NCBI GenBank assembly: GCA_026984515.1
Contig: JALSRZ010000142.1
Location: 1-40,457 of the forward strand
DNA length: 40,457 nucleotides
From: Thiohalobacter sp.
GTDB taxonomy: Bacteria > Pseudomonadota > Gammaproteobacteria > DSM-19610
Direction: 5' to 3'
Shown here: positions 1 through 36,236 of the stretch, piece by piece
How positions within the stretch are numbered: position 1 is the first letter of the stretch
Layout: each line of letters begins with the position of its first letter
The notes under the pieces: generated by a model
The model's input: the letters and a program-made list of their open reading frames with translations, nothing else
The model's database searches: none
Told to the model about the DNA's origin: nothing
Made by a program: the position numbers and the translations under genes

Positions 1-1464
1 ACTGACATAGTTGCCGATACTCACGGTAAACAGGGGAGCAAGACCGCCATCCAGGTACTCGGTATCGGGAAGCGCGCGTAACGCATCGGCCGGCGCAGCC
101 GGTGCCCCCGTGCCGGACAGGAATGCTGCCGTGCGGGCTTTCTGGACCGACACATCGGTGCCGAATATCGGCGCATCCCGTCCTCGCACCAGGCCCAGGA
201 TGGTACCGTTGGTATCCACCACCGTGATCGACACCCGCGCGGCGGTACCGGTTGGCCTGCGGATCTGGGCACGCGCGCGGTTGGCCACCGATAGCGCACT
301 GCTTAAAATCTGCCGGACCTCGGCTGCCGTCAGGGCATTGGCGGGATTACCCCCGGGCGTGTCGGTACCGGCGATCGGCCGGAAACGTTCGGTATTGGCA
401 TTGTCCACCAGCACAAAAGCATCCAGGGCGGCCGGATAATCCAGGGTATCCGGGCGAATACCCGAAGCCGGCTGTCCGAACGCGGTGCCGGCGATCACAG
501 ACGCCGCGTTATAACCGTTGACCGCCACCAGCTGCCCCACCCCGCCCAGTCCCGCAAAGGGCGGCGCGCTCGCCGGGTCGCTCAACAGGTCGGAAAACAG
601 GGCGTCCGAGAAACGCAGGGTCTTACCGGCCACGGTAATCCGGTCGGCGCGGCGCTCAACGGGGGCGGCAAAGCCAAAGCTTCCCGCCACCGCGATCTGC
701 TCATCCACGGCCTGGTCGAAATCGACGATGTCCTTGTCGAGGCTGTAGATGCCGTCGGCGATGACACCGATAGCCCCCACCGGCGTACCGTCCTTGTACA
801 GGGGCAGGCCACCGGGATCGGCCGCCAGCCCCAGTGGTGATCGCTTCGGACCTGCATCGGCCGATCCACCGGCGAAGCGGCCCGACAGGTCGGAACAGGG
901 CAACTGGCTGAACTGCACACCGAACAGCGGTCCGGAGCCCTGGTCTTTTTCGCGCGGATTGAAATGTTCCTGGATGATCTGGCTGGCGCTGCGCGTGGAG
1001 AACGCATTGCCTTCCGTCGACAGGTAGGCACCGGTAACAGCCTTGGCAATCGCAGCCAGTGTATCCGGGATGATATTGACCTCTTCGAGACCACCCGTGA
1101 TACCTCCGCCGGAAGTAATCGTCACCGAAGTCAGCGCACCGTTCATCCGGAACACTGCCAGCACGTTACCCACACGGTCGACTACGGCGATGGTTGCCGC
1201 TACGCCGCGCGCCTGCGCCTCACCGACTGCCTGTGCGATCACGGTTTCCACGTCGGCCACGCTGAGGAAGCTCGAGGCGTTGGCGCAGGAACCGTCGCAG
1301 GATATCGCGACCGTCCCGGGACCGACACCGGTACCCCGGTCCCCCTTCGCATTACCGCCGCCATCGCTCAGACAGGCGCCCAGCAACAACGTCAGGCCGG
1401 CGACCATCAACGCACTGCAAAAGCGTTTTCCCATTGCTGTGTATTCAAGACTGGCAACACTCAT
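1..1464 (-). CDS. Lipoprotein with two GlcG/HbpS (DUF336) haem-binding-type domains, partial (C-terminus beyond left edge)
   Basis: The minus-strand frame stays open from 1464 to base 1, so the C-terminus lies outside the window. The N-terminus has a hydrophobic stretch ending in lipobox LLGAC (Cys31 from the 1464 start), so an exported lipoprotein is predicted. Two GlcG/HbpS-type repeats can be seen: one around 'VETVIAQAVGEAQARG...IAVVDRVGNVLAVFR', a second around 'EVRQILSSALSVANRARAQ...ITVVDTNGTILGLVRG'. Members of this family bind haem or corrinoids, and several act extracellularly as haem sensors or stores. The ATG at 1464 overlaps the stop of the decahaem cytochrome gene (ATGA), which suggests translational coupling, and GGAG lies 11 nt upstream. 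An in-frame ATG at 1434 would give a more usual signal length (Cys21) but has no visible ribosome binding site. A role in receiving or buffering haem or electrons from the cytochrome is inference from position. Confidence 0.8.
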   Translation of the reverse strand, partial: MSVASLEYTAMGKRFCSALMVAGLTLLLGACLSDGGGNAKGDRGTGVGPGTVAISCDGSCANASSFLSVADVETVIAQAVGEAQARGVAATIAVVDRVGNVLAVFRMNGALTSVTITSGGGITGGLEEVNIIPDTLAAIAKAVTGAYLSTEGNAFSTRSASQIIQEHFNPREKDQGSGPLFGVQFSQLPCSDLSGRFAGGSADAGPKRSPLGLAADPGGLPLYKDGTPVGAIGVIADGIYSLDKDIVDFDQAVDEQIAVAGSFGFAAPVERRADRITVAGKTLRFSDALFSDLLSDPASAPPFAGLGGVGQLVAVNGYNAASVIAGTAFGQPASGIRPDTLDYPAALDAFVLVDNANTERFRPIAGTDTPGGNPANALTAAEVRQILSSALSVANRARAQIRRPTGTAARVSITVVDTNGTILGLVRGRDAPIFGTDVSVQKARTAAFLSGTGAPAAPADALRALPDTEYLDGGLAPLFTVSIGNYVS

Positions 1465-3221
1465 TGGCTGCTTGACTCCTCATTCGGAAGGACAGGGCGT
1501 GCTGCAACACCGCGCTCCAGCGCAGTGTTCAGTAATCCCATCGACGGGTTATGAAAGACGTGGCAATCGACACAGCTGGAATCCAGTTTGGCGGCACTGG
1601 AGGTTCCGCCATGACATTCCCGGCAGGAATCGATCCCGGGCATGAGCACATCACTGCTCTGCTCCGACTCGCGGGCCTCGTGACAATCCTCGCATTCGAC
1701 CATGGCGTGATCGCGATGAGCAAACACGGCATCCGGCATCCAGTGGCTGTTGATGCGTACCGGCTGTATACGCCACTCAGCTTCACCGGGTTCCGGCTCC
1801 TCGATGCGTTCCACCTCGTGGCAGGTATCGCATACCGAACGCTCGAAAATATCTTCGGCGGTCAGGTTGGCCTCCTTTTCCGCCCAGGCCAGCACCTGGT
1901 CGGGCGCCGGTGCGGGGCCGGAGCGGCCGGGTCGGCGCGGCGCCCGCCTGCGGACACTCGAACGCCGGACTTCCGGGTTCTGTTCCAGCGCCAGCTTGCT
2001 GTAATACTCATCCAGCGTGGCCAGCACCACGTCCACATCACCATGCGGCACTTCCCGGTCCGGGGCCTGCTCGTCAAATGCGAGACTGTGGCATGCCTTG
2101 CATTCACCGGCCATGGTGAACGGCTTCATCAGTGCCCCGGCAGCGTCTTCCACGTGGCAGTCTGCACATTCCATCACCTTGCGTTTGCCGCCGACCAGTT
2201 CCACGCCCTCCGGGTCCAGGTGTTTTTTATGATCGAACTTCAGGTTGGAGTGCTCCAGCAGCGGCGCCTGGTCCGTGCCGGCTTTCCGCGCCTGCCACCG
2301 GGTATCGCCGTCAGCGAATTCCGGTTCCAGCAGGGTAAGCCGGAAAGCGGGATGATCCTGTTCAAAATCCGCTACGGTGTCGAAACCGGTTGCCGCTGCA
2401 TCGATGGCGTCCGCGTCGTCATGGCAGTCCGTACACAGGGCCTGGTCGCGGCGCACGATCTGCCCCGGTTCCTTGTGCTCCTTGTGGCAGTCCTGGCACT
2501 GCTGGTCCGACAGGGCGGCATGATGGTCACTGTCTTCGGGGACATGGTGATGCATTTCCCTGTGACAGGAAACGCAGGCCTGGCTGGATACCTGGTGGAA
2601 TGCCTGCTGGTGGCAGACGTTGCAGTCATTGCCGATCTCCGGTGTACGGTGGGCGGTCGCCAGCGGCCCGGTGGACCAGAAGTTGTCGCTGGGCAGAAAA
2701 CGCTGATCTCTCAACATTCCGGCAATGTCCTCACTGAAGAGTCCGGCCAGCGGCACAATGAACGCCAGCAACAGCACCACTGACGATAGCAACCAGGCCA
2801 GCCTGGATTTCGAGATCCAGGTGTACTGCGCACGCTGCTTGACGAAGTCACCACTCGCCAGCATGGCCTCATCGTCTGTCGTGCCGTACTCGACCTGGAT
2901 GGCGAGATCGAAACCCGGCTGTTCCGGCAGCAGCACAAGCCGGTGTGCCCCGACCCGGATCTCGTCGCCCGGGCTGAGTACCGCCACCCGGACCGGCTTG
3001 CCATTGAGTTCGACCTGCGCCGTGCTGCTGGCGCGCAGTTCCAGGCTGCCGTCGTGCTTCCTGGCAATGCGGGCGTGGTGCACCTCGATGTCCGGACCCT
3101 GCAGGGAAATACCCTGGTCCGCACCCCGGCCGATGGTAAGCACGTCGGTAAGCAGCTCGCTGTCACGATATTCCAGGCTCTCCTTTCCACGACCGGTTAC
3201 ACGGCGAATCAGGCAATACAT
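1461..3221 (-). CDS. Membrane-anchored decahaem c-type cytochrome with N-terminal FHA domain
   Basis: This 586-aa protein has three parts. Residues about 27-95 form an FHA-like fold (GRGADQ, HHARI, ELNGKP). One transmembrane helix spans about 140-162. The rest carries ten CxxCH haem-attachment motifs, with first Cys at 200, 216, 242, 263, 352, 374, 464, 510, 533 and 550, grouped 4+2+4. Because c-type haems are attached in the periplasm, the FHA domain must face the cytoplasm. The FHA keeps the GR arginine (Arg32), but the usual Ser of S-x-x-H is Glu46 and the Asn of the NG turn is not obvious, so phosphothreonine binding may be altered. A basic, Pro-rich linker (about 419-442) separates haems 6 and 7. 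It follows the cytochrome b gene by 4 bp and overlaps the lipoprotein gene. The likely role is a transmembrane-anchored periplasmic electron wire under cytoplasmic control; the electron acceptor is unknown. Confidence 0.9.
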   Translation of the reverse strand: MYCLIRRVTGRGKESLEYRDSELLTDVLTIGRGADQGISLQGPDIEVHHARIARKHDGSLELRASSTAQVELNGKPVRVAVLSPGDEIRVGAHRLVLLPEQPGFDLAIQVEYGTTDDEAMLASGDFVKQRAQYTWISKSRLAWLLSSVVLLLAFIVPLAGLFSEDIAGMLRDQRFLPSDNFWSTGPLATAHRTPEIGNDCNVCHQQAFHQVSSQACVSCHREMHHHVPEDSDHHAALSDQQCQDCHKEHKEPGQIVRRDQALCTDCHDDADAIDAAATGFDTVADFEQDHPAFRLTLLEPEFADGDTRWQARKAGTDQAPLLEHSNLKFDHKKHLDPEGVELVGGKRKVMECADCHVEDAAGALMKPFTMAGECKACHSLAFDEQAPDREVPHGDVDVVLATLDEYYSKLALEQNPEVRRSSVRRRAPRRPGRSGPAPAPDQVLAWAEKEANLTAEDIFERSVCDTCHEVERIEEPEPGEAEWRIQPVRINSHWMPDAVFAHRDHAMVECEDCHEARESEQSSDVLMPGIDSCRECHGGTSSAAKLDSSCVDCHVFHNPSMGLLNTALERGVAARPVLPNEESSSQ

Positions 3222-3225
3222 GGCG

Positions 3226-4110
3226 CTACCAGTACAGGAACACAGTAACGATATGCACCGTCAGTACGACCAGCAGCGCGAACGTCACCGGCAAATGAAT
3301 ATACAGCCAGGTCCTGAGACGTGACTGCAGACGATTATCGATGCGCAGCACGTTCAGCAGCCTGCGCCGTTCGGTAAACAGGTCGATGAGGTCCCTGAGC
3401 ACCACCGTCTCTTCCCCGCCCCGGCTGGCAGCCAGCTGATCCGCCAGGTAGGCCAGTATCGCGCCCTGGTTGCGGTTGCCGGACAGTTTCGACCCGGAGC
3501 CGTCTGCGCCCGGCAGCAACACCCTGGAACGATCCTGACCGAGTACCAGCTGGTAGGCATCCGGTAATACCGCGGTGCGTTCAATGGCGCTGCTGACCGC
3601 CGTCTGCACATCGGGCAGCGTGGCTGTCGCCAGGCGCTGGCCGCGTCGATCCAGCTCTGCGATCCGGGTATAGATCTCGTTACGACCCTGTCCCGCAAGA
3701 TTGGCGGCGATCTTCTGCGGCAGCACCCGGTACAGGTAGACGCCGTAGAAGCCGCTGAAAATGACTACACACATCAGCAGGTAGGCGAGCGAGTGCACGT
3801 TCCAGCCGAGCTCGCCGGTGGAATGCAGGGTAGCGACGACCAGCAGCGCCATACCGAAATACACGTGGCCGGACAACCAGCCCTGCAAAGTGCCTGCACC
3901 GGATTCGTAAGCGCGCTTGCGAACCCCGAACAGGGCCAGCCAGACAATCAGCAGTGCACCAATGGTTCCGGTCGCATAGCCGTACCAGGTGCCGCCGTTC
4001 GCCCCCTCCGGCGAGTCATACAGCAGGAACAACAGCACGGCAATCGCGGTCAGGGAGAACGCCTGCAGCAGGTATCTTGCGTTGCCGAATTCAAGAAAGG
4101 ACTGGTACAT
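3226..4110 (-). CDS. Cytochrome b-like integral membrane protein
   Basis: From the ATG at 4110 the product is 294 aa. Four N-terminal membrane helices (about 12-31, 45-63, 81-97, 108-130) precede a soluble region of about 135 residues, and a fifth helix (about 271-293) ends the protein. Histidines in or near helices (His82, His96, His106, His272, His286) are suitable haem b ligands, as in cytochrome b561 or succinate-dehydrogenase-type anchors. The reading frame extends upstream to 4374, but that part lies in the inverted-repeat element at 4136-4321 and is not protein-like, so 4110 is the better start. It sits between the flavin/ferredoxin gene and the decahaem gene, 4 bp before the latter. 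The inferred job is to carry electrons from the cytoplasmic ferredoxin domain across the membrane to the decahaem protein. The family was recognised only in general terms. Confidence 0.75.
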   Translation of the reverse strand: MYQSFLEFGNARYLLQAFSLTAIAVLLFLLYDSPEGANGGTWYGYATGTIGALLIVWLALFGVRKRAYESGAGTLQGWLSGHVYFGMALLVVATLHSTGELGWNVHSLAYLLMCVVIFSGFYGVYLYRVLPQKIAANLAGQGRNEIYTRIAELDRRGQRLATATLPDVQTAVSSAIERTAVLPDAYQLVLGQDRSRVLLPGADGSGSKLSGNRNQGAILAYLADQLAASRGGEETVVLRDLIDLFTERRRLLNVLRIDNRLQSRLRTWLYIHLPVTFALLVVLTVHIVTVFLYW

Positions 4111-4135
4111 TATCCATACACCCGCTGCTGGCCGG

Positions 4136-4321
4136 TCTAGCCCGCATTTCTCCCCGGGTTCCGTAGCGAGGCGGTGGCAGGTCGTGTGATAAGCGGCGTT
4201 CGCGACCGAGGGCCGCGCAGGCATAGTCGACACGATGTCGAGCAGCCCGACCGAGTGAACGCCGCTTAGCGCGCGGCATGACGCCGCCGCAGCAGGAAGT
4301 CGGTGAGAAATGCGGGCTAGA
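4136..4321. mobile_element. MITE-like inverted-repeat element inside the redox operon
   Basis: A perfect 17-bp inverted repeat, TCTAGCCCGCATTTCTC at 4136-4152 and its complement at 4305-4321, bounds a 186-bp segment with no believable gene. A second, nested inverted repeat (TAAGCGGCGTTC at 4190-4201, complement at 4258-4269) makes it foldable. CTAG occurs at both ends (4137-4140 and 4317-4320), so an equally good reading is a 12-bp terminal repeat CCCGCATTTCTC with a 4-bp CTAG target duplication, as made by some IS5-type transposases. The right CTAG supplies the TAG stop of the flavin/ferredoxin gene. The left end is 25 bp before the cytochrome b start. No transposase is encoded, so it would be non-autonomous. 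Confidence 0.7.
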
Positions 4322-6722
4322 ACAGCACATGTCGATTGGCCACTTTGCTGAATGCCTCCGGCTTCACCCGCCACGCCGCACCGGTAGGACAGGACCGCAC
4401 ACAGGCCGGACCGCTATCCAGATCCTTGCACAGATCACATTTCACGGCCTTTTTCCCGGCGCCACCGGCGCTGCTGCCGGCCGGAGAACGCCGCCTGCCG
4501 CCGAACAGGCGTCCGAGAAAACCGTTACCGGCCGGTTTTGCCAGCGACGCCATACTGATGACCCCGTAGGGGCAGTTGTTGTAGCAGTTGCCGCAGCCGA
4601 TGCAGGTCGTATGGTCGATAAAGACCTCCCCGCCCTGGGTGCGCAAAATGGAATTGGTGGGACAGTCCTTCATGCAGTGAGGCTGTTCGCAGTGCCGGCA
4701 GGAGACCGGCACATGGATACCGGCAAACGACGGGCCCGCCTCGCGCCTGAGGCGGGAAACACCCTGGTGGGTACCCGCACAGGCGGCCTCGCAGTTGTCA
4801 CAGCCGATACACAGGGATTCATTGATGATCAGGGCATCCGTGGCCTCACCCAGCCCGTGATCCATGAGAAAACGCACAATCTTTCCCCGCGCCGGCACGG
4901 ATTCCATGTCGATGTAGGTAGCCATCCCGGCACGCAAGCGCTCCTGCATCCGCCCGACCAGCGACGGGTCTTTCCGGATCAGTTCCAGCAGTTCGCTGCG
5001 ACCTGTTTTGATGGTTTCCAGCGCCACCTCCGCGCAGGCCGTCTCGGTATAGCGGCCGATGTTCATGATCGAGGCTTCGCCGATATAGCCGCCGGAATGT
5101 ACATAACCGACGATCACGGGGCCATCATCGGTTTCCCGGTGCAGGGTTACGGAACCGGAGCGTATGACATGCAGGCATTCGCCGGTTTCGCCTTCGCTGA
5201 ACACCGCTTCCCCGGGGGCATAACGTTTCAGTTCCACCCGTGCGGCGATCCCGAGTAATTCCTCGACGGACAACGAGGGAGTGAATACCTCCTGCAGCAC
5301 CCGGGCGATAAACAGCTGGTCTATACCCTCGCGGACGGAATCGATACTGGCAAGCAGCTTGTTCATGATCCGCCGCGGGGTCTCGATCAGCAGGCAATCG
5401 CTCTGTGCAGTAGCGGTATTGCTGCGCCGGCGTCCGGATATCAGGCTGATCTCGCCAAAAAACTGCCCCTGTCGTACCAGGTGGGTATAACCCTCCCCTG
5501 AAGAAAGCCCGATTGTGATTTCACCATCGATGACCGTAAAAAAGCTGTTGGTGTATTCACCCTCGCGGTAAATAATATCACCGGCACGGAAGGTCGCGAT
5601 ATCACTCTCCAGCATGAACTCGCGGAACATCAGCGGATTGATCTCGGCAAACATGGGCACGCGTTGCTGCAGCAGGTTCATGCAGACATCGACATCCAGT
5701 TCGTAGGGCAGGCGCTGCAGACGTTCCGCCAGCAACTCGTGATCCGCGGGTTTGATGTCCCGCCCCAGCAGGTATTCAACGACCTCGTAGCCCTGGTTCA
5801 TTGCCTGCTTGATGAGTGGGTAGCCACCCAGTGCGCCGACCACGTACAGGCCCTGTACGGAGGATTCATAACGGGTGCTGAGGGTGGGCAGCGCGGTGGG
5901 CTTGTCATTGGGAAATTCGATACCGCAGGATTCGACAAACCGCCTGGGGGGGATTGCTCCCAGGCGCGCAATGATGCGGTCACAGGCCACCTCGGCTTCG
6001 CCGTTCTCCGTCTTCAGCACCAGCAGACCCGGTTTCCCCGCTGCCTTGCCGGTCTCAACCCTGGCCACCGTGCTTTTGTAAAAACACTGGATGGATCCTT
6101 CCTCGATCGCCGACAGCATCTTGTCGATATTGGCCGGTTTGGCGCGGGCAAATTCATCGCGGCGATTGACGATGAACACTTCGTTCTGTCTGGCCAGCCC
6201 AAGCGCATTCTCGATGGCCGAATCACCCGCCCCGATCACGACGATGGATTCATCCCGGTATTCGTCCGGGTCATCCAGGGTATACTGGATAAAAGGCAGG
6301 TCACCCCCGGGCGCATCCACCTTGCGCGGGTTGCCCTGCACGCCGATTGCCAGCACCACCTGCTCCGCCCGAACCGTGTCGCCGTCCGCCAGGGTCAAGG
6401 TAAAGTCGCCTTTCTGACCCTGGATGGCGGTGACTTCCGCCTGGTAGCGGATATTCACCCCGTGTTCGCGGAGACCGGTATCCCACACGCCGAGCACCTG
6501 CTCCCGGGTTCCGACATCAAAGCCGATGTCGCTGCGCAGCGGCAGGTAGGATGGCTCTGCCATCACCAGCTTGCCCTTCTGGTAACGCTGGATGGTATTG
6601 GAAAACGTCCCGGTGGATTCGAGCAGAATGTGCGACTGGCCCAGTTCGGCGGCGTGCACGGCTGCACTCAGGCCGCCGGGACCCGAGCCTACGATAGCCA
6701 CTGTGACTGCTTCCTGAGTCAT
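4317..6722 (-). CDS. Fusion oxidoreductase: NAD(P)/FAD (thioredoxin-reductase-like) + two cNMP-binding domains + 4x[4Fe-4S] ferredoxin
   Basis: The product is 801 aa from the ATG at 6722; longer upstream starts only add residues unlike the family. Residues 1-320 form a two-dinucleotide-domain flavoprotein (GSGPGG at 12-17, GAGDSA at 164-169) lacking the CxxC redox disulfide of true thioredoxin reductases. Residues about 355-460 and 485-580 are cyclic-nucleotide-binding domains with phosphate-cassette motifs GEISL...R and GEASI...R. Residues about 630-790 form a ferredoxin with four 4-Cys sets (638-648, 675-687, 707-717, 762-778), enough for four [4Fe-4S] clusters. There is no signal peptide, so it is cytoplasmic. 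Expected reaction: NAD(P)H oxidation with electrons passed through Fe-S clusters to a membrane partner, modulated by cNMP or a related ligand. GGAA lies 6 nt before the start. The stop codon lies within the adjacent inverted-repeat element. Confidence 0.88.
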   Translation of the reverse strand: MTQEAVTVAIVGSGPGGLSAAVHAAELGQSHILLESTGTFSNTIQRYQKGKLVMAEPSYLPLRSDIGFDVGTREQVLGVWDTGLREHGVNIRYQAEVTAIQGQKGDFTLTLADGDTVRAEQVVLAIGVQGNPRKVDAPGGDLPFIQYTLDDPDEYRDESIVVIGAGDSAIENALGLARQNEVFIVNRRDEFARAKPANIDKMLSAIEEGSIQCFYKSTVARVETGKAAGKPGLLVLKTENGEAEVACDRIIARLGAIPPRRFVESCGIEFPNDKPTALPTLSTRYESSVQGLYVVGALGGYPLIKQAMNQGYEVVEYLLGRDIKPADHELLAERLQRLPYELDVDVCMNLLQQRVPMFAEINPLMFREFMLESDIATFRAGDIIYREGEYTNSFFTVIDGEITIGLSSGEGYTHLVRQGQFFGEISLISGRRRSNTATAQSDCLLIETPRRIMNKLLASIDSVREGIDQLFIARVLQEVFTPSLSVEELLGIAARVELKRYAPGEAVFSEGETGECLHVIRSGSVTLHRETDDGPVIVGYVHSGGYIGEASIMNIGRYTETACAEVALETIKTGRSELLELIRKDPSLVGRMQERLRAGMATYIDMESVPARGKIVRFLMDHGLGEATDALIINESLCIGCDNCEAACAGTHQGVSRLRREAGPSFAGIHVPVSCRHCEQPHCMKDCPTNSILRTQGGEVFIDHTTCIGCGNCYNNCPYGVISMASLAKPAGNGFLGRLFGGRRRSPAGSSAGGAGKKAVKCDLCKDLDSGPACVRSCPTGAAWRVKPEAFSKVANRHVLF

Positions 6723-6798
6723 GTCCTGTTCCGTCCCGGCACCGGTCAGCACCAGCGCTTGATTACAAACAATATCGTACGGTTTAAACGCGGCCCCA

Positions 6799-9700
6799 TT
6801 ACCTGCTCGCCAGTGCTGCGCGCATCCCGCCAGGTACAGGCAACCGTGCGCTGCCGCCGACCACCGGCGGGAACAGGAACTCACCGGCTTCATGCCCGGC
6901 ATATTTGATAGGCGCATATTGCGGGTTCTGCGCAATACGTGCAGACGCGGCATCGCTCTTCACCCTGGCCTGCACATTACGATACAGGGTGAACCCCTCC
7001 AGGATGCCGGTATTGTTCTGCAATACATCCAGGAAAGCGGTGGCAAACACGGAATGTTCCCCGCCACTTGAATCCAGTACCGGCTGCACCCCGCCCGAGC
7101 TCAACACCAGGCGAGCCCGTACCCGGGACATCGCCGCGTACCATTTCTGTTTCTTGTTCGCTGTCATGCCGGTATCCAGGCGTGACACGGAAGAGCGCGT
7201 CAGTGTGCCTGAATAACAGGAATCCGCCACCACCAGGATATGTTTTGCTGCCATTACATTGAGGATATCGGTAATCGCAACATTCGATATCCAGTTTGTG
7301 CTGCTGTCGGTTTCCGAATCGACCGGCAGCCAGTAACCGCGCAGGTTCCGGTTGTCCAGCTCACCGTGGCCGGCATAGTAAATCAGCAGGTTACTATCTT
7401 CATCCAGCTCCTTTCGCAGCCGGTTCAGGGCGGAAAGAATGGTGTAGCGGTCCGCGTCCAGCAACAGCGTCGTTTTAAAGCCGTACCGCTTCTCCAGCAC
7501 GGCCGCAACGGCACTGGCATCACTGCGCGCAGTGCCCAGGTCAGGCAGATTGCGGTAATGGTCATTGCCGATCACCAGTGCATGAAAGGTTCCGAATGAA
7601 ACGCCTGCCATACGGGCTTTTCCGTGGCCGGGCTCTGCAGCAGGGCTTGCTTTCTTCTCTTTGGCGGGCTGGATGACAAAATCGAGTTTGGTGCGCTGCC
7701 CTGACCGGTCCACTGCCACAGCATGGACCGGGGCATCAGCGGCCTGCAAGCGGATGCTTGACTGGAACAGGCCTTGCTCGTCAACCTTCTGGGACACGTC
7801 GTTGACCCGGAACGACAGCAGCTCCTCGACCGGTGTCACGCGGCCGATGATCTCGATCTCGGGGACGATGGAGCGCAGGCGTATCACCGGGGTACCGCGC
7901 GTCAGTGCAATCGGTGGCTCAATGATCTCGATGGACGGACCCAGCGCTACCGGAATCTCTACCGCTGCAAATTCCGACACGTCAGTGACTGCTGCTGTAC
8001 CGACCGACGCCGGGGCAGCTGCCGCCTGCATTTTTTCGATCTCCTGTTTCTGCCTGTCAATCTCCGCCTGCCGGTTCTGCAACTCCTTTTCCAGCGCGGC
8101 AATGCTGGTTGCCGACGCAGCGCCCTGTACCGCCAGCGCCTGTTGCGATAACTCCAGCTGGGACTGCAGCGACTCAATCTCCCGGTTGCGGGTGTTCAGC
8201 ACCAGCTCCAGCTGCGAACGCTTCTGCTGTACGTCGCGCAGCTGTTTGTTCAGTTGCGCCTCCCGTTGCCGTGTCTGTGCTTCCAGTCGGCTGATTTCGT
8301 TTTGCTGGTTTTTCACTGCCGCGTCCAGCTCCTGAACCCGGCTCGACCACAGCGCTGCGCGGGCTGCATCGCGGTCCTGTTGCTGCGACAGGGCGCGCTT
8401 TGCCATCGCCAGTTCGTTGCGCGTACTGTCAAGCTCGATCCTGCGTCGTTCCATCAATCGACCGGACTGCTCGAGCGCTGCCTGCAAGCGCCCTGCCTCT
8501 TCCTGCTGTTGCTGTAATTCGGTGCCCAGCCGTTTCTGATCACTGCGCGTATCGCTCAACTCACGCTGCAGTGACGATACCGCTACACCACGCTCCTCGA
8601 TCTGCACGCGCAAGGCGGCAAGTTCCCGGTCCCGCTCCCTGAGCTGCCTGCGCAGGGCCTGGTCCCTGTCACCCGAGGATGCCTGAGCACCTTGCAACTC
8701 GCTATGCATGCTGCGGTTGGCCTGCTCCAGCCTGGCAATGTCACCCTTCAGCCTGTCGATCTCGCTTGCCAGGCTGTCACTCCGGGTCTGAAGGCGCACT
8801 TTCTCCAGCTCTGCCGCCTCGCCACCGGCGCGGCTGACTGAAAGCTGACTGCGGGTCTTCTCCAGTTCTTTCTGCAGGGCTGCCACATCCCGGTTGCGCT
8901 GTACCACACCGGCCTGCCCCTGCTGCAGTTCACTGCGCAACTGCTCGATGTGTTGCTGCTGTGCCGCCATCTTCGCGATCAGCTGCTGCCGTTCGCTGGT
9001 CAGCTGGTCCAGCCGTTTTTGCAGTTCATCCGCTGACTCGCTGCCGGCAGGTGCCGCAAGCGGTGCGCCCGCAGTCGTTTCCGCTCCGGCCTGTTTACGC
9101 ACCTCGATCTGCTTTGCCAGCTGCACCACTTCCGCCTCGGACGCCTGCAGGCGCGCCTGGCGTTCCCTGATTTCGCGCTGCATACGTGCGGTTTCGCTGC
9201 GTAAACCGCTGACCTCGGTGCGTAACTGCTCCGTCTCGGCCGCTGCGGATTTGCGCCGGGCCGCCTCGATCGACGAGACAAACTCCAGCTCACCCGTGGA
9301 CAGGCCGGAGGCCTTACGGTACCAGTTCATGGCTTTCACCAGGTCCTGCTCGACACCCAGTCCGCTTTCATACAGGTAACCCAGATTGATCTGCGCGCGC
9401 GAATAATTCTGTGCCGCAGCTTTCAGGTACCACTGCAGGGCCACCTGGTAATCAGGCAATACGCCCAGGCCCTTTTCATAGATTTCCCCGACGTAGGTCT
9501 GCGCCGCGGGGTCACCTTCCTGTGCACGGGGCAACCAGATTTTCAGGGAAGTGGAATAGCTGGCCCGGTCATAGGCCACGTACTCGCCACCGCGGATCTC
9601 ACAATCCACGGCCGTGGTTTTGATAGCGCGTCGTTGCGTAAGGTAGGTAAATTGCTGACCGAGTTTATGCAGCTGGCCTGGCAGGAGACAATCAACCACC

Positions 9701-9828
9701 AGCAGCTGATCGGGATCGCCGGCGGCGGCAGCACTGTCCGCCCGGTCACCGGTGGTGCTGCAACTAAAAACAGAAAGAGCGAGGGTCAGTGCGCTGGCTG
9801 ACCGTACAAACCGTTTGACGGGCAACAC
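6799..9828 (-). CDS. Caspase-like (peptidase C14) lipoprotein with SEL1 repeats and a long coiled coil
   Basis: Numbered from the GTG at 9828, the product is 1009 aa. A signal sequence ends in lipobox SVFSC (Cys23), then come two SEL1-type repeats (about 103-173, YEKGLGV and YESGLGV), about 400 residues of heptad-like coiled coil (200-605, Gln/Glu/Arg/Leu rich), a beta-sandwich-like segment (625-720) and a C14 caspase-like domain (about 740-980). The catalytic dyad is intact: His821 in YYAGHGE and Cys871 in VADSCYSG. No ATG start fits; GTG 9828 has AGG 5 nt upstream. GTG 9843 and TTG 9888 are alternatives. It lies downstream of the kinase on the same strand. Bacterial caspase-like proteins (orthocaspases) cleave after basic residues in characterised cases; the substrate here is unknown. 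The lipobox places it outside the cytoplasm. Confidence 0.85.
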   Translation of the reverse strand: MLPVKRFVRSASALTLALSVFSCSTTGDRADSAAAAGDPDQLLVVDCLLPGQLHKLGQQFTYLTQRRAIKTTAVDCEIRGGEYVAYDRASYSTSLKIWLPRAQEGDPAAQTYVGEIYEKGLGVLPDYQVALQWYLKAAAQNYSRAQINLGYLYESGLGVEQDLVKAMNWYRKASGLSTGELEFVSSIEAARRKSAAAETEQLRTEVSGLRSETARMQREIRERQARLQASEAEVVQLAKQIEVRKQAGAETTAGAPLAAPAGSESADELQKRLDQLTSERQQLIAKMAAQQQHIEQLRSELQQGQAGVVQRNRDVAALQKELEKTRSQLSVSRAGGEAAELEKVRLQTRSDSLASEIDRLKGDIARLEQANRSMHSELQGAQASSGDRDQALRRQLRERDRELAALRVQIEERGVAVSSLQRELSDTRSDQKRLGTELQQQQEEAGRLQAALEQSGRLMERRRIELDSTRNELAMAKRALSQQQDRDAARAALWSSRVQELDAAVKNQQNEISRLEAQTRQREAQLNKQLRDVQQKRSQLELVLNTRNREIESLQSQLELSQQALAVQGAASATSIAALEKELQNRQAEIDRQKQEIEKMQAAAAPASVGTAAVTDVSEFAAVEIPVALGPSIEIIEPPIALTRGTPVIRLRSIVPEIEIIGRVTPVEELLSFRVNDVSQKVDEQGLFQSSIRLQAADAPVHAVAVDRSGQRTKLDFVIQPAKEKKASPAAEPGHGKARMAGVSFGTFHALVIGNDHYRNLPDLGTARSDASAVAAVLEKRYGFKTTLLLDADRYTILSALNRLRKELDEDSNLLIYYAGHGELDNRNLRGYWLPVDSETDSSTNWISNVAITDILNVMAAKHILVVADSCYSGTLTRSSVSRLDTGMTANKKQKWYAAMSRVRARLVLSSGGVQPVLDSSGGEHSVFATAFLDVLQNNTGILEGFTLYRNVQARVKSDAASARIAQNPQYAPIKYAGHEAGEFLFPPVVGGSARLPVPGGMRAALASR

Positions 9829-10090
9829 GCGCACCTGACTCACCAGCCTTCCGGTCGGGCCGTCAAACAGCCCTGACCATAACGACAAAGCGCACCCGCT
9901 TCGTCACCGGATACTGGCATCTCCCGCTCCTCGTCCCGACTGGTATTATTATCCGCTGCGACAATCGGACCAAAGTCGACAGTCACGCGATTGTTTTTCC
10001 TGCTATTTATTCTTGCCCGGATTTTTCACCGGTAGACCATAAATTTAGCACACCCCGTCAACAAGTCAATGAACCGGCTGCTTGCCGGAT
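9829..10090 (-). promoter_or_regulatory. Intergenic leader between the kinase and caspase-like genes
   Basis: This 262-bp stretch contains no convincing gene and is AT-richer than its surroundings between about 9940 and 10070. Read on the minus strand it includes TTGGTC, a 17-nt spacer and AATAAT, a weak sigma70-like arrangement, so the caspase-like gene may have its own promoter rather than relying only on readthrough from the kinase gene. No terminator hairpin with a T-run is visible after the kinase stop. Confidence 0.3.
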
Positions 10091-11491
10091 CTATTCGGAG
10101 GACTCCAGGCGCTCGATCTCCTGGATCCCCTGCCGCGCTGCCTGGTTATCCGGGTCCATGCTCAGCACCATCTGGTAGGCGTCCCAGGCATTGGCCCCGG
10201 GTGGTTCCTTCAAACGCCCGATGGCCATGTGCGCCTCGGCACCCTGCAACAGGCGATTGATCCTCTCCTGGCTGGCGGCGTCACGCCGCGGTGGATCCGC
10301 CGCAACCGGGACTTCAACCCCTGTTTTTTTTCCGCTTACCTGTGCTGCGCTTTCCGGTTCCTGTATGGAGCGCCAGCTGTCCGCATAGAAATAATAGCCA
10401 AGGCCCGCCAGCGCAAATACCGGGACCAGGACAAGTAACGCCACGAACCACCGCTTGCCCGGTATTGTTTGCGCTCCACCAGGTAACACAGGTTCAGCAG
10501 CCAGGTCACCCGCTCCTCCCGGCACCCCGATCTCGGTCGGGGCTTCTGCGCTGTTTACCGGCGTTTGCGCTGCGGAGGTGCCGGCAGCAGCCTCCACGCT
10601 GCTATCTGACCGGTTACCCGGATCGTAGACCCTGGAAGAAGGCGCCATCACCGTCCGGTCGTCGGAACCCGGGCCGTACTCAACGGCCCGGTTCCCCATC
10701 ACGTTGTCCAGGGCCTGGATCAGCTGCCGGGCATCGGCATATCGCTCATCCGGGTTCTTGGCAAGCAGTCGATCCACGATCGGCTGATAAACCGACAGGT
10801 GTTCGGGCAATGGCGGTGCCGGCTGATTGAGGTGCATCAGGGCAGTGGCAAAGGCATCATCACTGCTGAACGGACGCTTGCCGGTCAATAGCTCGTACAG
10901 GACGATACCCAGGCTGTACAGGTCGGAGCGCCCGTCCAGTTTTGCCGCACGCGCCTGCTCTGGGCTCATGTATTCCGGGGTACCGATGGCATAGCCCATT
11001 TGCGTGAGCTGCTTGTCCGATTCCAGTGCCTTGGCAATGCCAAAGTCCGTGAGCGTAGCCTCGCCACCTTCCCGGAACAGGATATTGGCCGGTTTGATAT
11101 CGCGGTGAACGAAACCGTGCTCGTGCGCGTAGCCCAGCGCGCCGGCGATACTGCGGATGATAGTCAGTGCTTCCTGTGCACCCAGCGGTGATTTCAGACG
11201 ATCGGTGAGACTGCCGCCATCGACGTACTCCATGGCCATGTAGTAGGTGTTGTTATGGCAGCCGATATCGTAGATATTGACGATGGAGGGATGCCTGAGC
11301 CTGGCAACGGTTTTACCCTCTTCGATAAAGCGGGCACAGAATGTCTTGTCCATCACCGGCGCGGAATGCATGACCTTGAGCGCAATCTGGCGCTCCAGCG
11401 ACTCCTGTATACTCAGGTACACGGTGGCCATGCCCCCTTCGCCGAGCACCGACTGAATCTGGTAACCGGGAATTTCCAGGGAATCCGTCAT
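10091..11491 (-). CDS. Transmembrane PknB-type serine/threonine protein kinase
   Basis: The 466-aa protein has an N-terminal Hanks-type kinase domain (about 10-270): glycine loop GEGGMATV (17-24), ATP-binding Lys39 in ALKV, catalytic HRD at 129-131 with Asn136, DFG at 149-151, and GTPEYMSPEQ (170-179) after the activation segment. A Pro/Ala/Ser-rich juxtamembrane region follows, then one transmembrane helix (about 348-370) and a short C-terminal tail of about 95 residues, possibly a small helical repeat. All catalytic residues are present, so it should be active. The kinase faces the cytoplasm, the same side as the FHA domain of the decahaem cytochrome, and FHA domains typically bind phosphothreonine. 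It is the first gene of the leftward cluster. The start has no visible Shine-Dalgarno, and a TATACT box sits only about 8 nt upstream. Confidence 0.93.
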   Translation of the reverse strand: MTDSLEIPGYQIQSVLGEGGMATVYLSIQESLERQIALKVMHSAPVMDKTFCARFIEEGKTVARLRHPSIVNIYDIGCHNNTYYMAMEYVDGGSLTDRLKSPLGAQEALTIIRSIAGALGYAHEHGFVHRDIKPANILFREGGEATLTDFGIAKALESDKQLTQMGYAIGTPEYMSPEQARAAKLDGRSDLYSLGIVLYELLTGKRPFSSDDAFATALMHLNQPAPPLPEHLSVYQPIVDRLLAKNPDERYADARQLIQALDNVMGNRAVEYGPGSDDRTVMAPSSRVYDPGNRSDSSVEAAAGTSAAQTPVNSAEAPTEIGVPGGAGDLAAEPVLPGGAQTIPGKRWFVALLVLVPVFALAGLGYYFYADSWRSIQEPESAAQVSGKKTGVEVPVAADPPRRDAASQERINRLLQGAEAHMAIGRLKEPPGANAWDAYQMVLSMDPDNQAARQGIQEIERLESSE

Positions 11492-14168: not shown

Positions 14169-15716
14169 TCAATTCGAATCCTGTGCAGTCTTCGCGACAA
14201 ACAGAAAATCCCCGAACTCGTGGTTGCTGCCTTTCAGGGCAGCGTATTCCGGCACCTGGTCGAGACCCAGTTCATTGGCCCTGCGCGTAACCTGCTCCCG
14301 CACCTGCTGGAACAGTCGACCGCCATCGAGCACCGAATCGTTGGCTTCCAGCGCCTCGATAAAGGCACTGGCAAATACGGAATGGCCGCCGCTGCCGCCA
14401 TCAAGCACCGGCTCCAGTCCGCCCGACGTCAGCACAATACGGGCCCGGTTGGCCGCCATTACCTGCAACCAGCGATTCCTCGCGTCTTCTGACATACCAG
14501 GATCGAGATCCGAAGTGGCTGCCCGGTTCATGGCACCGCTGTAGCAGGAATCCGCGACGATCATGATGTGTTTGGCGGACATGCGGTTGATCGCATCGGT
14601 AATATCTACGGTGGAGATCCAGTTGGCGGGAGTATCCGGCTCTGCGTCCGCGGGCAGCCAGTGCCCGCGCATATTGAGCCGGTCGTACTCACCATGACCC
14701 GCATAGTAGATCAGCAGGTTATCCTTCTCGGTAAGCTCCTTTCGCAACTCGCTGAGTGTTTTCAGGATCTCATAACGGGTGGGATTCATGAGCAGTCGCG
14801 TGGAAAAACCGTATTGCTGTTTGAGTATTTTATTAACCGCCTGTGCATCGGTCACCGCGGTTTCCAGGTTTCGATAGTGGGCGTAATCATTGATGCCGAT
14901 AACCAGCGCATGGTACCGGCCAAAATCTGAACCGGAATCCACTGCACCACCCGGCGGCGCAGATGCAACATCGTCCGGCGGCAAAACCAGCCAGAAATCA
15001 CGCTTGTCCCGGTTGCCGTTTACATCAACGGCCACAATTTCAACATGGGTGCGTTGCTTGTCTATGGGTACGGCATGTTTGAATACGCCCTGGTCAGACG
15101 TTTCCAGCAGCTGCCCGTTAAGGCTCAGCGAAACCAGCTTTGCCGGGCCGCTCACCTTGCCGACAATCAGTCGCTGGTCGGTATCCCTGTCGGACAGCAC
15201 CTGGCTGGCAGACCGCGTCAGCGGCGGGTCGAGTATGTCAATCAACAGCTCGCCAACGGTCTGTCTGGCAACCACCGGGACCGGGCGTGCGGAAGGCGCC
15301 GGAACAGCCGGTGCCGCCGGTGGGGGTGACGGCGCGGCAGCAGGCGGCGCTACGGGAGCCTGCACAGCGGGCTGAACCCGGATATTGATATCATCACGCC
15401 GGCGCCGGTAATCACGGTTCTCCCGTGTTTGCGCCATCACCGACTTTGCCTCTTCGCGAGTCACCCACAACACTTCATAACGGGTGAGCGAAGAACTGGA
15501 CCTGAGCAATATCTGGTAGAGTTTTTCGCCGGGCCGGTCCGGGTGGTCGCAGTCGCCCTGCTGGATCTTGAACAGGCGGCTCTCTTCGAAACTGCTGAAG
15601 CCGTTGCCTCCGTAGCACTCGGTAGTCTCAACGGTCACCTGCTCGGACAGCGCGTCAAAACTGGTCAGTGACAGCAGCAGGGGAAGCAGGTACAGGGCAT
15701 ATCGGCAGCGAAGCAA
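14169..15716 (-). CDS. Secreted caspase-like (peptidase C14) protein
   Basis: The 515-aa product has a signal peptide (1 to about 24, LYLLPLLLSLTSFDALS), an N-terminal region with Cys34 and Cys56, a Pro/Ala-rich linker (about 116-148), a beta-rich segment (155-245) and a caspase-like domain (265-500). The catalytic dyad is His341 in YYAGHGE and Cys391 in VADSCYSG. The domain is closely similar to that of the protein at 6799-9828, sharing ALVIG, RKEL, NLLIYYAGHG, NWIS, AKHI and ADSCYSG, so the two are paralogues. The start is TTG at 15716, supported by AGGAG 9 nt upstream; the nearby ATG is out of frame. It lacks the coiled coil and lipobox, so it may be soluble in the periplasm. The substrate is unknown. 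Confidence 0.87.
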   Translation of the reverse strand: MLRCRYALYLLPLLLSLTSFDALSEQVTVETTECYGGNGFSSFEESRLFKIQQGDCDHPDRPGEKLYQILLRSSSSLTRYEVLWVTREEAKSVMAQTRENRDYRRRRDDINIRVQPAVQAPVAPPAAAPSPPPAAPAVPAPSARPVPVVARQTVGELLIDILDPPLTRSASQVLSDRDTDQRLIVGKVSGPAKLVSLSLNGQLLETSDQGVFKHAVPIDKQRTHVEIVAVDVNGNRDKRDFWLVLPPDDVASAPPGGAVDSGSDFGRYHALVIGINDYAHYRNLETAVTDAQAVNKILKQQYGFSTRLLMNPTRYEILKTLSELRKELTEKDNLLIYYAGHGEYDRLNMRGHWLPADAEPDTPANWISTVDITDAINRMSAKHIMIVADSCYSGAMNRAATSDLDPGMSEDARNRWLQVMAANRARIVLTSGGLEPVLDGGSGGHSVFASAFIEALEANDSVLDGGRLFQQVREQVTRRANELGLDQVPEYAALKGSNHEFGDFLFVAKTAQDSN

Positions 15717-16123
15717 CTTGATTTTCTCCTGGGCGGAAAGCGGGTCTGCGCTACTTTATATATCAACTTGTTTTCACCATCCGGCGAACAGGCCCGAGCG
15801 GGCATCGTAGCGAATACCCTCGATAAATCAAGCTCCGCCCGGCTGACCCCGCCACTGTTCAGGGCAGCACCCATGGGCCCGCCCGCCAAAGAGTCCTTCC
15901 TCATAACCCGGGCAGGGATCTTTGCCCACCGTGCACCGGACTCCTGGCTGAGGTGATGTACAGGCGGGGTTCAAACATCGAAAACCCCTTTTACTACAAC
16001 CCTCTGCCACAGCCCATGTAGAAAACAGTGGGTAGATAGGAGTATAGTCCAGATACTGGCTCACGCCAGCGCCCCCTCACAGCGGGCATCAAAAACATAA
16101 GATCACCAAAGGGAGAAAATCGA
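15717..16123. promoter_or_regulatory. Long divergent intergenic region between the second caspase-like gene and the CsgG-like gene
   Basis: The 407 bp separate two divergent starts and hold no credible gene. On the minus strand TTGATT, 16 nt and TACGAT (about 15807-15834) form a possible promoter for the caspase-like gene, and TATATA occurs near 15760. On the plus strand TATAGT (16043-16048) may serve the CsgG-like gene. Both genes share nearly the same ribosome binding sequence, GGAGAAAATC(A/G)AG, before non-ATG starts. The GC-rich centre (about 15835-15935) has several short complementary runs, but I cannot assign a known RNA. Confidence 0.35.
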
Positions 16124-16900
16124 GTGAACAGAATTTTCCGGCACTTACTTCTCGCAAGCGCATGCATTTCCCTGCCGGTATCAGCAGGCTGGAATCCATT
16201 CGAAGCCAAAACAGAGACCAAGGTCACCTCGGGCGCAGACGCACCAGGCATCCAGGATGCCCAGAACGAGGCCTACAATGGCCCGAAGGCAAGGGTCGCC
16301 GTATCCCGCTTTACCAACAAGTCGCACGGCGCGGGCTGGTACAACAGCCAGATCGGTGACGGCATGGCCGACCAGCTGACCACGGCGCTGGTCAACAGCG
16401 GCCGTTTCATCGTTCTTGAGCGTCAACAGCTCAGCGATGTCATGGCGGAACAGGACCTGGGCGCCACCGGACGTATCCGCGGCGATACGGCGGCCCCGAT
16501 CGGTCAGATCGAAGGCGCCGAACTGCTGATCACCGGCGCCGTCACCGAATTTGAAGGCAACTCCGAAGGTACACGAGCGACCGGAGGCGGGCTGCTGGGC
16601 AGCGTAGTGGGCGCGGTAACCGGTTCAGTAAAAAAGGCGCATATGGCCATCGATATCCGCGTCATTGACACCAAAACATCGCGCGTGCTGCTGGCAACCA
16701 GTGTTGAAGGGTCAGCATCCAACGTTGATGTCGGCGCACTGGCGGGCGGCCTGTTCCGGGCCAGCGGATCCACCAGCGCACTGGCGGGCGGCCTCAGGAG
16801 CTGGAAAAACACGCCCAACGAGAAAGCACTGCGAATCTGCATTAATGAAGCAGTCAATTTTATCGTCAGCAAAACGCCGCCGATTTACTACCGGCATTGA
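16124..16900 (+). CDS. CsgG/HfaB-like periplasmic or outer-membrane protein
   Basis: The 258-aa product has a signal peptide (LLLASACISLPVSA) without a lipobox. It then shows the CsgG-type pattern: KARVAVSRFTNKS strand, GDGMADQLTTALVNSGRFIVLER, and a central glycine-rich loop (GGGLLGSVVGAVTGSV, about 165-180) where CsgG inserts its membrane hairpins. It ends with an alpha/beta part and a C-terminal helix. CsgG forms the outer-membrane secretion pore for curli, but shorter relatives without a lipid anchor are common and uncharacterised, and there are no curli genes here. The start is GTG at 16124, with GGAG at 8 nt spacing. It lies between a caspase-like gene (divergent) and the M48-FHA gene (same strand, 96 bp downstream). 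Confidence 0.78.
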   Translation: MNRIFRHLLLASACISLPVSAGWNPFEAKTETKVTSGADAPGIQDAQNEAYNGPKARVAVSRFTNKSHGAGWYNSQIGDGMADQLTTALVNSGRFIVLERQQLSDVMAEQDLGATGRIRGDTAAPIGQIEGAELLITGAVTEFEGNSEGTRATGGGLLGSVVGAVTGSVKKAHMAIDIRVIDTKTSRVLLATSVEGSASNVDVGALAGGLFRASGSTSALAGGLRSWKNTPNEKALRICINEAVNFIVSKTPPIYYRH

Positions 16901-16996
16901 GCTTTCCAGGGCGAGTAGCAGACGTGGTCGGGATATACGCAGGGAAGCGTATGCAGTCAGGCACTGAGCACGGCGTACCATCTTGTAACGAAAACC

Positions 16997-18199
16997 ATGG
17001 AAAGAGCAAAACCGAGTCCCGGAACGGTAAGACTGAGCGACTACCGCTACCCGGGTGAGCTATGGTCCCTCATCATCACGTTCACACTGATCACCCTGGT
17101 CTATGCCCTGCTGATCTGGATATTCCCGAATGACCTCGGCCAGATAGGGAAAGCACTGGCGTTTACCCTGGCCGGTATCACCGTATACGTGCTTTTCGTC
17201 CTGATCCAGCAGCGCGCAGCCACTGGTACCCTGGTACGCGCCAGCCCGCGCCAGTTTCCCGAACTGCATGACCTGTCGATGGAAGCAGCCGCCCGGCTTT
17301 CCATGCGACCGGTGCGTGTGTATGTAAAGCGTGCGGCGGGGATGAAAGTGTACCCGCTGGGGCTGTGGAGCAAACCGCTGATCGTGGTTACCTCATCGAT
17401 GGTCGATCACCTGGAGAAAGAAGAGCTGCAATTTTTTATAGCGCGTGAACTGAGTCATATCCACGCCGGGCATACCTGGCTCAGGGTGCTGCTGAAACCG
17501 GTAGGTTCAGACGTGGCGGTCATCGGGAGACTGCTCAACACCATGATTTTCGGCGACTGGGTGAACCGCTCGGAACTGACTGCCGACCGGGGCGCGTTCA
17601 TAGTCTGTGAATCACTGACCACTTCCATCCGTGCCATGCTCAAGTTTGCCGTGGGCGTCAATCTGTTTAACCAGATGGACATCGAGGAATTTCTTGACCA
17701 GATACACGATGTGGACAATATAGGCAGCCGCCTGACGGCGCTGGTTGCAGGCCAGCCCTACCTGACACACCGGGTCCGGAAGCTGACTGAATTCGCCCTG
17801 TCGGCCGACGTGCAACGCCTCATGCGGGAGGAGCATACCCGGACCCGGATACTCAAGAACCTGCCGAACGAGTTTGTTCAGTCGGGCAAGCGCAACCCGC
17901 CATCGAGACAGCCGCAACCCTTGCTGGTATCTGCCGCTGACAGGCAGCGATTCATGCTGGACAAGGAATGCACCCGCATCGGCAGAAGCCAGGAAAATGA
18001 CATCGTTATAGAACACGGCAGGATCAGTCGTCGGCACGCCGAAATTACCAGACGCGGGCAGGCCTATTATATTGTGGACAAGGGCAGCAGTAACGGCGTC
18101 TGGTTAAACGGAAAGAAAGTAGCAGAACCGACCAGGCTGGCATTCGGAGATCACATCCTGATTGCCGAACAGGAATACCTGTTTACGCAGGAATCCTGA
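16997..18199 (+). CDS. Membrane M48-type peptidase-like protein with C-terminal FHA domain (zinc motif altered)
   Basis: The 400-aa product has two N-terminal membrane helices (about 22-43, 52-70), an M48/HtpX-like domain (80-270) and an FHA domain (about 326-385). The zinc motif expected to be HExxH reads RELSH (Arg150-Glu151-Leu-Ser-His154): the first zinc-binding His is Arg, encoded by CGT, one base from CAT. The downstream Glu ligand region is kept (ELTADRGA, Glu193). The protein is therefore probably not a normal zinc protease and may be a scaffold. The FHA is canonical: IGRSQENDI, SRRHAEI and SSNGVWLNG provide the Arg, Ser, His and Asn used for phosphothreonine recognition. It is a plausible partner of the kinase at 10091-11491. 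Confidence 0.82.
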   Translation: MERAKPSPGTVRLSDYRYPGELWSLIITFTLITLVYALLIWIFPNDLGQIGKALAFTLAGITVYVLFVLIQQRAATGTLVRASPRQFPELHDLSMEAAARLSMRPVRVYVKRAAGMKVYPLGLWSKPLIVVTSSMVDHLEKEELQFFIARELSHIHAGHTWLRVLLKPVGSDVAVIGRLLNTMIFGDWVNRSELTADRGAFIVCESLTTSIRAMLKFAVGVNLFNQMDIEEFLDQIHDVDNIGSRLTALVAGQPYLTHRVRKLTEFALSADVQRLMREEHTRTRILKNLPNEFVQSGKRNPPSRQPQPLLVSAADRQRFMLDKECTRIGRSQENDIVIEHGRISRRHAEITRRGQAYYIVDKGSSNGVWLNGKKVAEPTRLAFGDHILIAEQEYLFTQES

Positions 18200-19669: not shown

Positions 19670-19678
19670 GAGTTTCCC

Positions 19679-21193: not shown

Positions 21194-21277
21194 CAATAAA
21201 CCCTTTCAATAAACTGCCCGACAGTGCACCCGTTTGCAGCAAGCAGTGGAGAATACCGCCCCAAAAATATAAATGTA

Positions 21278-23239: not shown

Positions 23240-23244
23240 GGCGC

Positions 23245-23547
23245 TTATCCTTTCATGCTGTCCAGGTCGTCGACATTGATGGTGTGACGGTTACGGAACA
23301 GTACCACCAGGATGGCCAGGCCGATGGCTGATTCCGCCGCGGCCACAGTAAGGATAAAGAACACAAACACCTGGCCGGAGATATCACCCGTGAAATGCGA
23401 GAAGGCGATAAAGTTGGTATTCACCGCCAGCAGCATCAGCTCGATGCACATCAGCAGGATGATAACATTCTTGCGGTTGATAAAGATGCCGGCCACGCTC
23501 AGCCCGAACAACACCGCACCCAGTATCAGATAGTCAGCAAGTACCAT
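23245..23547 (-). CDS. nuoK: NADH-quinone oxidoreductase subunit K
   Basis: This 100-aa subunit has three helices and lies next to nuoJ in the membrane arm. The conserved acidic residues of the proton path are in [13 protein letters not shown] and [13 protein letters not shown]. Its length and hydrophobicity match the family (MrpC-like). It starts with ATG 23 bp after the nuoJ stop. Confidence 0.96.
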
Positions 23548-23570
23548 AGCGTTTTACGGAAGTGACCGGA

Positions 23571-24179: not shown

Positions 24180-24182
24180 GGC

Positions 24183-24674: not shown

Positions 24675-24684
24675 ATCATTCGCC

Positions 24685-25725: not shown

Positions 25726-25734
25726 GGCCCGTTG

Positions 25735-29444: not shown

Positions 29445-29447
29445 GGT

Positions 29448-31210: not shown

Positions 31211-31217
31211 GGGGATC

Positions 31218-31969: not shown

Positions 31970-31982
31970 CGATTACCCTTTT

Positions 31983-32459: not shown

Positions 32460-32466
32460 CAGGCAG

Positions 32467-36200: not shown

Positions 36201-36236
36201 AGCCCGGCTGCAGGGTAAATCACTGGATGTTCAAAA

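Follow-up and report, generated by a model that had tools for sequence, protein, structure and literature searches.

Introduction

The left end of a Thiohalobacter sp. contig (assembly GCA_026984515.1, contig JALSRZ010000142.1; all 40,457 nucleotides were analysed and are called the window below) raises the question of how electrons from cytosolic NAD(P)H might cross the cell envelope, and what would control their passage. A sequence-only reading of six same-strand genes at this end had proposed an undescribed electron conduit gated by a kinase and by cyclic nucleotides, with a caspase-like partner. Here we report that the genes for a NAD(P)/FAD enzyme with two cyclic-nucleotide-binding (cNMP) domains and four 4Fe-4S sites (OxRed), a membrane cytochrome b, a fusion of an FHA domain with a decahaem cytochrome c (FHA10) and an HbpS-like lipoprotein belong to a widespread, linked system, which probably reaches the outer membrane and is probably under cyclic-nucleotide control. 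The kinase is an optional component, and the caspase lies outside the system. On balance we favour the view that the locus encodes a trans-envelope electron-transfer system, probably one that exports reducing equivalents.

Gene linkage and distribution

A scan of the named genomes with an OxRed profile returned 490 relatives, 80 of which were kept, and only named loci with enough contig entered the denominators of the linkage counts. Downstream of OxRed, and on the same strand wherever present, lay the genes for cytochrome b (70/72), FHA10 (68/69) and HbpS (60/65). The genes of a predicted barrel protein (U630; 54/59) and of a decahaem cytochrome with a C-terminal LVIVD region (LVIVD10; 50/57) were linked to OxRed on the same strand, and median intergenic gaps along the cluster ranged from -30 to +7 bp. 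A search of the class recovered full-length FHA10 relatives in 12 of 273 other genomes, with 31-37% identity to the window protein; each adjoins a cytochrome b gene, and also OxRed where this is not truncated or displaced. A phylum-wide sample, another class included, contained FHA10 in 15 of 398 genomes (14 besides this one), and OxRed and cytochrome b adjoin it in all 14 others. Rare co-occurrence in related genomes, which would have refuted the sequence-only reading, was thus not observed for OxRed, cytochrome b, the FHA-decahaem protein and HbpS. Most of the cluster genes carry only hypothetical or domain-level annotation in public records.

LVIVD10 was found in 12 of 369 class genomes (~3%), and two congeners of the source genome lack it; because of this patchy distribution, the system has probably spread in part horizontally. 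Sphingobium herbicidovorans carries the full set on its conjugative plasmid pMSHV. On two Sphingobium plasmids (L185 and L186) a hypothetical gene of ~6 kb adjoins the gene for a tetrahaem-type cytochrome, and a ShlB/FhaC-type secretion gene lies nearby in L185. Two further loci (L090 and L096) belong to metagenome bins assigned to Xanthomonas sp. and Klebsiella pneumoniae, probably in error.

Structure of the locus

The six open reading frames (ORFs) are present on the minus strand where the sequence-only reading placed them, and Pfam agrees with its domains for all but the cytochrome b (Pkinase; Peptidase_C14 with Sel1; Pyr_redox with two cNMP and several Fer4; FHA with c3/c7-type haem; HbpS-like). 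Four of them concern the electron path:

1..1464, minus strand: HbpS-like (PF03928) lipoprotein, incomplete at the contig end (Pfam 62.6 bits; lipobox LGAC)
1461..3221, minus strand: FHA10, with an FHA domain (cytoplasmic side), one transmembrane helix and a periplasmic decahaem cytochrome c; 10 CxxCH
3226..4110, minus strand: membrane cytochrome b (alignment-conserved start, His conservation; ORF up to 4374)
4317..6725, minus strand: OxRed (Pfam, NCBIfam, alignment; ORF up to 6953, relatives start near 6725)

The probable start codons of OxRed (~6725) and cytochrome b (~4110) were revised to the starts conserved in alignments; OxRed and the caspase-like gene therefore do not overlap and are separated by a 73-bp gap. 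The FHA10 and HbpS genes share 4 bp, and another 4 bp separate the end of cytochrome b from FHA10. A promoter scan scored no better than shuffled sequence.

The window is the entire contig C142 of the source genome, and the HbpS gene runs off its left end. The gene resumes on another contig of this genome (G000), C45 (19891-19142), the end of which overlaps the window start by 152 bp with one mismatch, within HbpS. Profile searches of the genome found the outer-membrane barrel and the decahaem LVIVD cytochrome on C45, where the system continues for ~10 kb past the window; besides these two it gains a c554-like tetrahaem, a PP2C phosphatase, a glutamate dehydrogenase and an adaptor with FHA domains. 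The joined order is kinase, caspase, OxRed, cytochrome b, FHA10, HbpS, U630, LVIVD10, c554-like tetrahaem, PP2C, two-FHA protein and ELFV-type (glutamate) dehydrogenase. With this continuation the electron path likely reaches the outer membrane.

Elsewhere in the window, the genes of respiratory complex I (nuo) were read by eye at 18236-32507; they share the strand of the conduit and come directly after the caspase and protease genes at 14169-18199 that are described below. At 32939-40457 a number of genes, most of them plus-strand, look by eye like sulfotransferases and glycosyltransferases and possibly have a role in surface polysaccharide.

Inner-membrane components

OxRed combines the following parts:

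5790..6704, minus strand: Pyr_redox_2 (FAD/NAD(P)) domain (residues 84-388, E 3e-26)
5349..5594, minus strand: cNMP domain 1, phosphate-binding cassette FFGEISLISGRRRSNT intact
4989..5240, minus strand: cNMP domain 2, with Tyr in place of the cassette Arg in this genome
4356..4829, minus strand: C-terminal ferredoxin part (Fer4 families), with 16 Cys corresponding to four 4Fe-4S sites

In Pfam and NCBIfam the FAD/NAD(P) domain resembles YpdA and thioredoxin reductase, and the ferredoxin part resembles AegA, HydN and NrfC. The 16 Fe-S cysteines are invariant in an alignment of 10 relatives.

The best evidence that OxRed and cytochrome b are partners is their fusion in two genomes of the phylum-wide sample, where they form a single protein of ~1120 aa (L179, 5350-8706; L180, 3052-6423) that matches the OxRed profile over residues 2-794 and the cytochrome b profile over ~770-1118. 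Five histidines of cytochrome b (H170, H184, H194, H360, H374) are conserved in 84-85 of 85 relatives, and four of the five form two H-x13-H pairs (H170/H184 and H360/H374), a pattern that would accommodate two transmembrane b haems. NADPH oxidases and ferric reductases move electrons from cytosolic NAD(P)H across the membrane through a flavin and two haems, which are bound by two pairs of far-apart His on two helices; the His pattern of the present cytochrome b recalls this type. In the present system, by contrast, the flavin is on a protein that resembles thioredoxin reductase and has Fe-S clusters, and the likely acceptor is a decahaem cytochrome rather than oxygen. The cytochrome b had no match above cut-off to FRD or any other family in Pfam and none in NCBIfam, bc-type families included, and sequence searches of the PDB with cytochrome b, U630 and LVIVD10 gave no useful match.

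FHA10 would receive these electrons in the periplasm. Its relevant features are:

1560..2624, minus strand: ten CxxCH haem sites (invariant alignment columns)
2949..3137, minus strand: FHA domain with a degenerate phosphothreonine site (Pfam residues 29-91; column frequencies from 83 members)

All 82 complete relatives have exactly 10 CxxCH motifs, and the 9-10 further conserved periplasmic histidines outside these motifs fit bis-His ligation of ten haems. In the FHA domain, GR is kept in 73 of 83 members and the His in 76 of 83; the Ser of SxxH is mostly Ala or Pro and the SxNG turn is absent, and FHA10 was rejected as a canonical phosphothreonine reader. One member has no FHA domain at all.

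Probable outer-membrane components

The sequence-only reading had called the product of the gene at the left end of the window a double HbpS-type lipoprotein, and Pfam confirms the HbpS-like domain. The gene is incomplete here; relatives encode ~650-750 aa, and the one scanned whole contains three HbpS stretches.

The AlphaFold2 (AF2) model of U630 (mean predicted local distance difference test, pLDDT, 76.5) is a barrel of ~18 long strands, and the C-terminal residue is Tyr or Phe in 62 of 62 complete members; by this model U630 is an outer-membrane barrel. Its best fold match in VIA-align is AlgE (Z 28.1, root-mean-square deviation 2.7 over 361 residues). AlgE and Occ channels are the top matches; MtrB is not among the listed matches, which excludes nothing. 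Linkage counts and barrel model together place an outer-membrane barrel gene alongside those of multihaem cytochromes. LVIVD10 has 10 CxxCH motifs (7/7 complete ORFs counted) and thirteen invariant histidines outside them.

These outer proteins also allow another interpretation, in which the system is a periplasmic multihaem reductase: the barrel would be a solute channel for an oxidised substrate (e.g. an oxyanion), which LVIVD10 and the c554-like tetrahaem would reduce with electrons from OxRed. The barrel does resemble AlgE and Occ/OprD-type 18-strand channels, LVIVD10 has more invariant histidines than ten bis-His haems need, and it matches weakly (51-65 bits) ExtM of the Geobacter selenite/tellurite cluster. 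This score is far under the family's curated cut-off of 800, although a distant relation is possible; no catalytic haem site was identified, and the LVIVD10 model (pLDDT 46) is too poor to judge the haem part. We regard such a reductase as possible but rather unlikely.

A subtype with OxRed, cytochrome b and FHA10 and with no HbpS, barrel or LVIVD10 nearby was seen at six loci (L083, L087, L103, L114, L040, L041), two of which (L040 and L087) carry instead two c554-like tetrahaems, a pentahaem and an uncharacterised protein of 540-550 aa. This subtype suggests a reusable NAD(P)H-to-periplasm module.

A gene for an ELFV-family glutamate dehydrogenase recurs by the cluster (L129, 4624-6003; L171, L173, L176, L184, L043, L044, L058, L060, L065, L079, L109, L118), and the one checked in NCBIfam (L171) is NADP-specific. 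Such enzymes would use up NADPH, as would suit a system running in reverse, in which electrons taken at the outer membrane from an external donor pass through the decahaems and cytochrome b to reduce NAD(P)+. Multihaem chains are reversible, which also counts in favour of such uptake. The cultured hosts seen, on the other hand, are aerobic heterotrophs (Colwellia, Alcanivorax, Thalassotalea, Lysobacter, Sphingobium). In the literature a single line of a table records a 'forkhead-associated protein' with 10 haems, without a functional role, in 27 of 87 iron-oxidising Gallionellaceae (PMC10734462), and this protein with its 10 CxxCH is a further point for uptake. Overall we judge electron uptake unlikely.

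Regulation

The sequence-only reading had proposed two regulatory inputs, of which cyclic nucleotides are the better supported and a probable one. In cNMP site 1 of OxRed, F-G-E and Arg are invariant in 90 of 90 members, so that the site has the phosphate-binding cassette (G-E plus Arg) of CRP/PKA-R-type proteins; the Arg of site 2 is kept in 87 of 90 relatives and is Tyr in this genome. Genes for a CHASE2 cyclase, a TPR protein and a FecR protein lie directly upstream of OxRed at about a dozen loci, and CHASE2 genes near cores numbered 7 of ~30 against 0.4 expected (Poisson P ~2e-7, with related genomes counted as independent). A SpdA/CpdA-like phosphodiesterase adjoins the core in five alphaproteobacteria-like loci and in Sphingobium; its scores are under the equivalog cut-offs, so the assignment is at family level only. 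The window's own genome encodes a class I CyaA, unlinked to the locus, and no class III cyclase was found in it.

Gating by the kinase, the other proposed input, fared less well. The two genes concerned are:

6799..9888, minus strand: caspase-like (Peptidase_C14) lipoprotein with Sel1 repeats and a coiled coil (Pfam)
10091..11491, minus strand: transmembrane Ser/Thr kinase (Pfam, motifs intact)

The genome has four kinase and three PP2C genes, one of each at the locus, and the core is flanked by the kinase on one side and by PP2C and the two-FHA adaptor on the other. Two loci share part of this arrangement: in L041 PP2C and a kinase directly follow FHA10, and in G009 the c554-PP2C-FHA order is identical. 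A same-strand kinase lies at the core locus only here and in L041, and PP2C only here, in L041 and in G009. Kinases were found at three loci in all, one of them 5 kb off, in the opposite orientation and as a fusion with an FGE-sulfatase domain; with one of the three doubtful, the kinase was rejected as a general part. Kinase, PP2C and FHA genes are a phospho-signalling add-on in a few lineages. The first FHA domain of the C45 adaptor retains GR and SRRH, and phospho-signalling may act through this separate adaptor rather than through FHA10.

The kinase and both caspases of the genome appear to have intact catalytic motifs. The caspase-like gene adjoins the core in this genome only and is absent at every other core locus examined, which rules it out as a conserved partner. 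It scored 74 bits against NF047832 (EACC1-associated family; cut-off 140). In a comparison with defence proteins the kinase matched many PD-T4-6 models, as any serine/threonine protein kinase would, the caspase had a weak match, FHA10 had none, and OxRed matched only through its cNMP domains. Just two Peptidase_C14 genes were found in the genome (window 6799-9888 and 14169-15716). They are no more than 8 kb apart and have as neighbours the genes for a CsgG-like protein (16124-16900) and for a fusion of an HtpX-like protease with an FHA domain (16997-18199).

The full model of the sequence-only reading, with kinase, FHA domain and caspase as integral parts, phosphothreonine gating and a caspase effector, agrees with the flanking genes described here and in L041 and G009; given the single caspase neighbour, the three kinase loci, the degenerate FHA site of FHA10 and the member that has no FHA domain, we consider it very improbable.

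Relation to described systems

The claim that this gene set is undescribed has held so far: a literature search found no description of the cluster, although subscription papers were mostly outside the search and an earlier description is possible. The closest characterised cluster is ext of Geobacter (extHIJKLMNOPQS), which has been tied to selenite and tellurite reduction (PMC5877670). It is likewise conserved and encodes a non-pcc porin-like outer-membrane protein together with a membrane cytochrome b, an Fe-S protein and several multihaem cytochromes, among them a decahaem. In ext, however, a bc-type cytochrome b and a Rieske protein (ExtO/ExtP) take the place of the NAD(P)/FAD/4Fe-4S/cNMP enzyme; here the cytochrome b matches no bc-type family and the Fe-S part has four 4Fe-4S sites. 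No FHA, HbpS or LVIVD parts are described for ext, ExtM has 12 haems, and the barrels of the present system had no ext-family match in NCBIfam.

The system would operate in the manner of MtrCAB, MtoAB and PioAB, with an inner-membrane electron source, a periplasmic decahaem, an outer-membrane barrel and a second decahaem. It differs from MtrCAB in its source, which is NAD(P)H via a flavin/Fe-S enzyme and cytochrome b instead of quinol via CymA, and in its barrel, predicted to be ~18-stranded and AlgE-like. Scores against the MtrA/DmsE family (TIGR03508; cut-off 192.2) were 19.1 bits for FHA10 and 6.1 bits for LVIVD10 (L176).

PCC3 and Uet (Gallionellaceae/Tenderia) are similarly conduits of a predicted porin and multihaem cytochromes in Proteobacteria, and Uet has NHL repeat units beside its cytochromes. 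PCC3 has periplasmic cytochromes with 21-27 haems. Uet has, besides the NHL proteins UetHI, the undecahaem UetJ, trihaems and the peptidyl-prolyl isomerase UetB (PMC10734462); these last three were not seen here. No cNMP or FHA parts are reported for either. Trihaem cytochromes did not recur in the families clustered in this study, in which Uet was compared by description only, not by sequence.

Discussion

The path from NAD(P)H through the membrane to periplasmic haems, put forward by the sequence-only reading, is supported by the conserved, linked gene set, and the outer-membrane barrel and second decahaem extend it. In the favoured trans-envelope reading, OxRed would oxidise cytosolic NAD(P)H via FAD and its four 4Fe-4S clusters and would pass the electrons, presumably as a complex with its partner, to the two haems of cytochrome b and on to the membrane-anchored periplasmic decahaem of FHA10. 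From there they would move to LVIVD10, the c554-like tetrahaem and a complex of barrel and lipoprotein at the outer membrane, and the final acceptor would be extracellular or enter through the barrel. A cyclic nucleotide, probably cyclic AMP (cAMP), would exert its effect at the cNMP domains, which lie between the flavin part and the Fe-S part. The cAMP would come from the unlinked class I CyaA in this genome and from the adjacent CHASE2 cyclase in relatives, where the adjacent SpdA/CpdA-like phosphodiesterase would remove it; in a few lineages the kinase/PP2C/FHA module would be added.

Several points weigh against this reading. The direction of electron flow is not readable from sequence. 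Five named loci with enough contig have neither HbpS nor barrel, and the outer part is therefore not universal. The barrel of MtrB has 26 strands, so that U630 with ~18 may serve as a channel for a substrate rather than as a cytochrome sheath. On the regulatory side, the counting of related genomes as independent bears on the CHASE2 enrichment, and this genome has a degenerate cNMP site 2.

Tentatively, then, binding of cAMP or cyclic GMP to the cNMP domains of OxRed might open or close electron flow to the outer membrane and make the system a second-messenger-gated respiratory conduit. We know of no respiratory enzyme described to be under such direct second-messenger control. With at least 490 OxRed relatives in one scan, the system is a candidate for a common route by which NAD(P)H electrons cross both membranes in ordinary aerobic Proteobacteria, and it enables a direct test, at the protein level, of cyclic-nucleotide gating of a respiratory chain. 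If the proposal is true, the cell would switch trans-envelope electron transfer allosterically by a signalling nucleotide.

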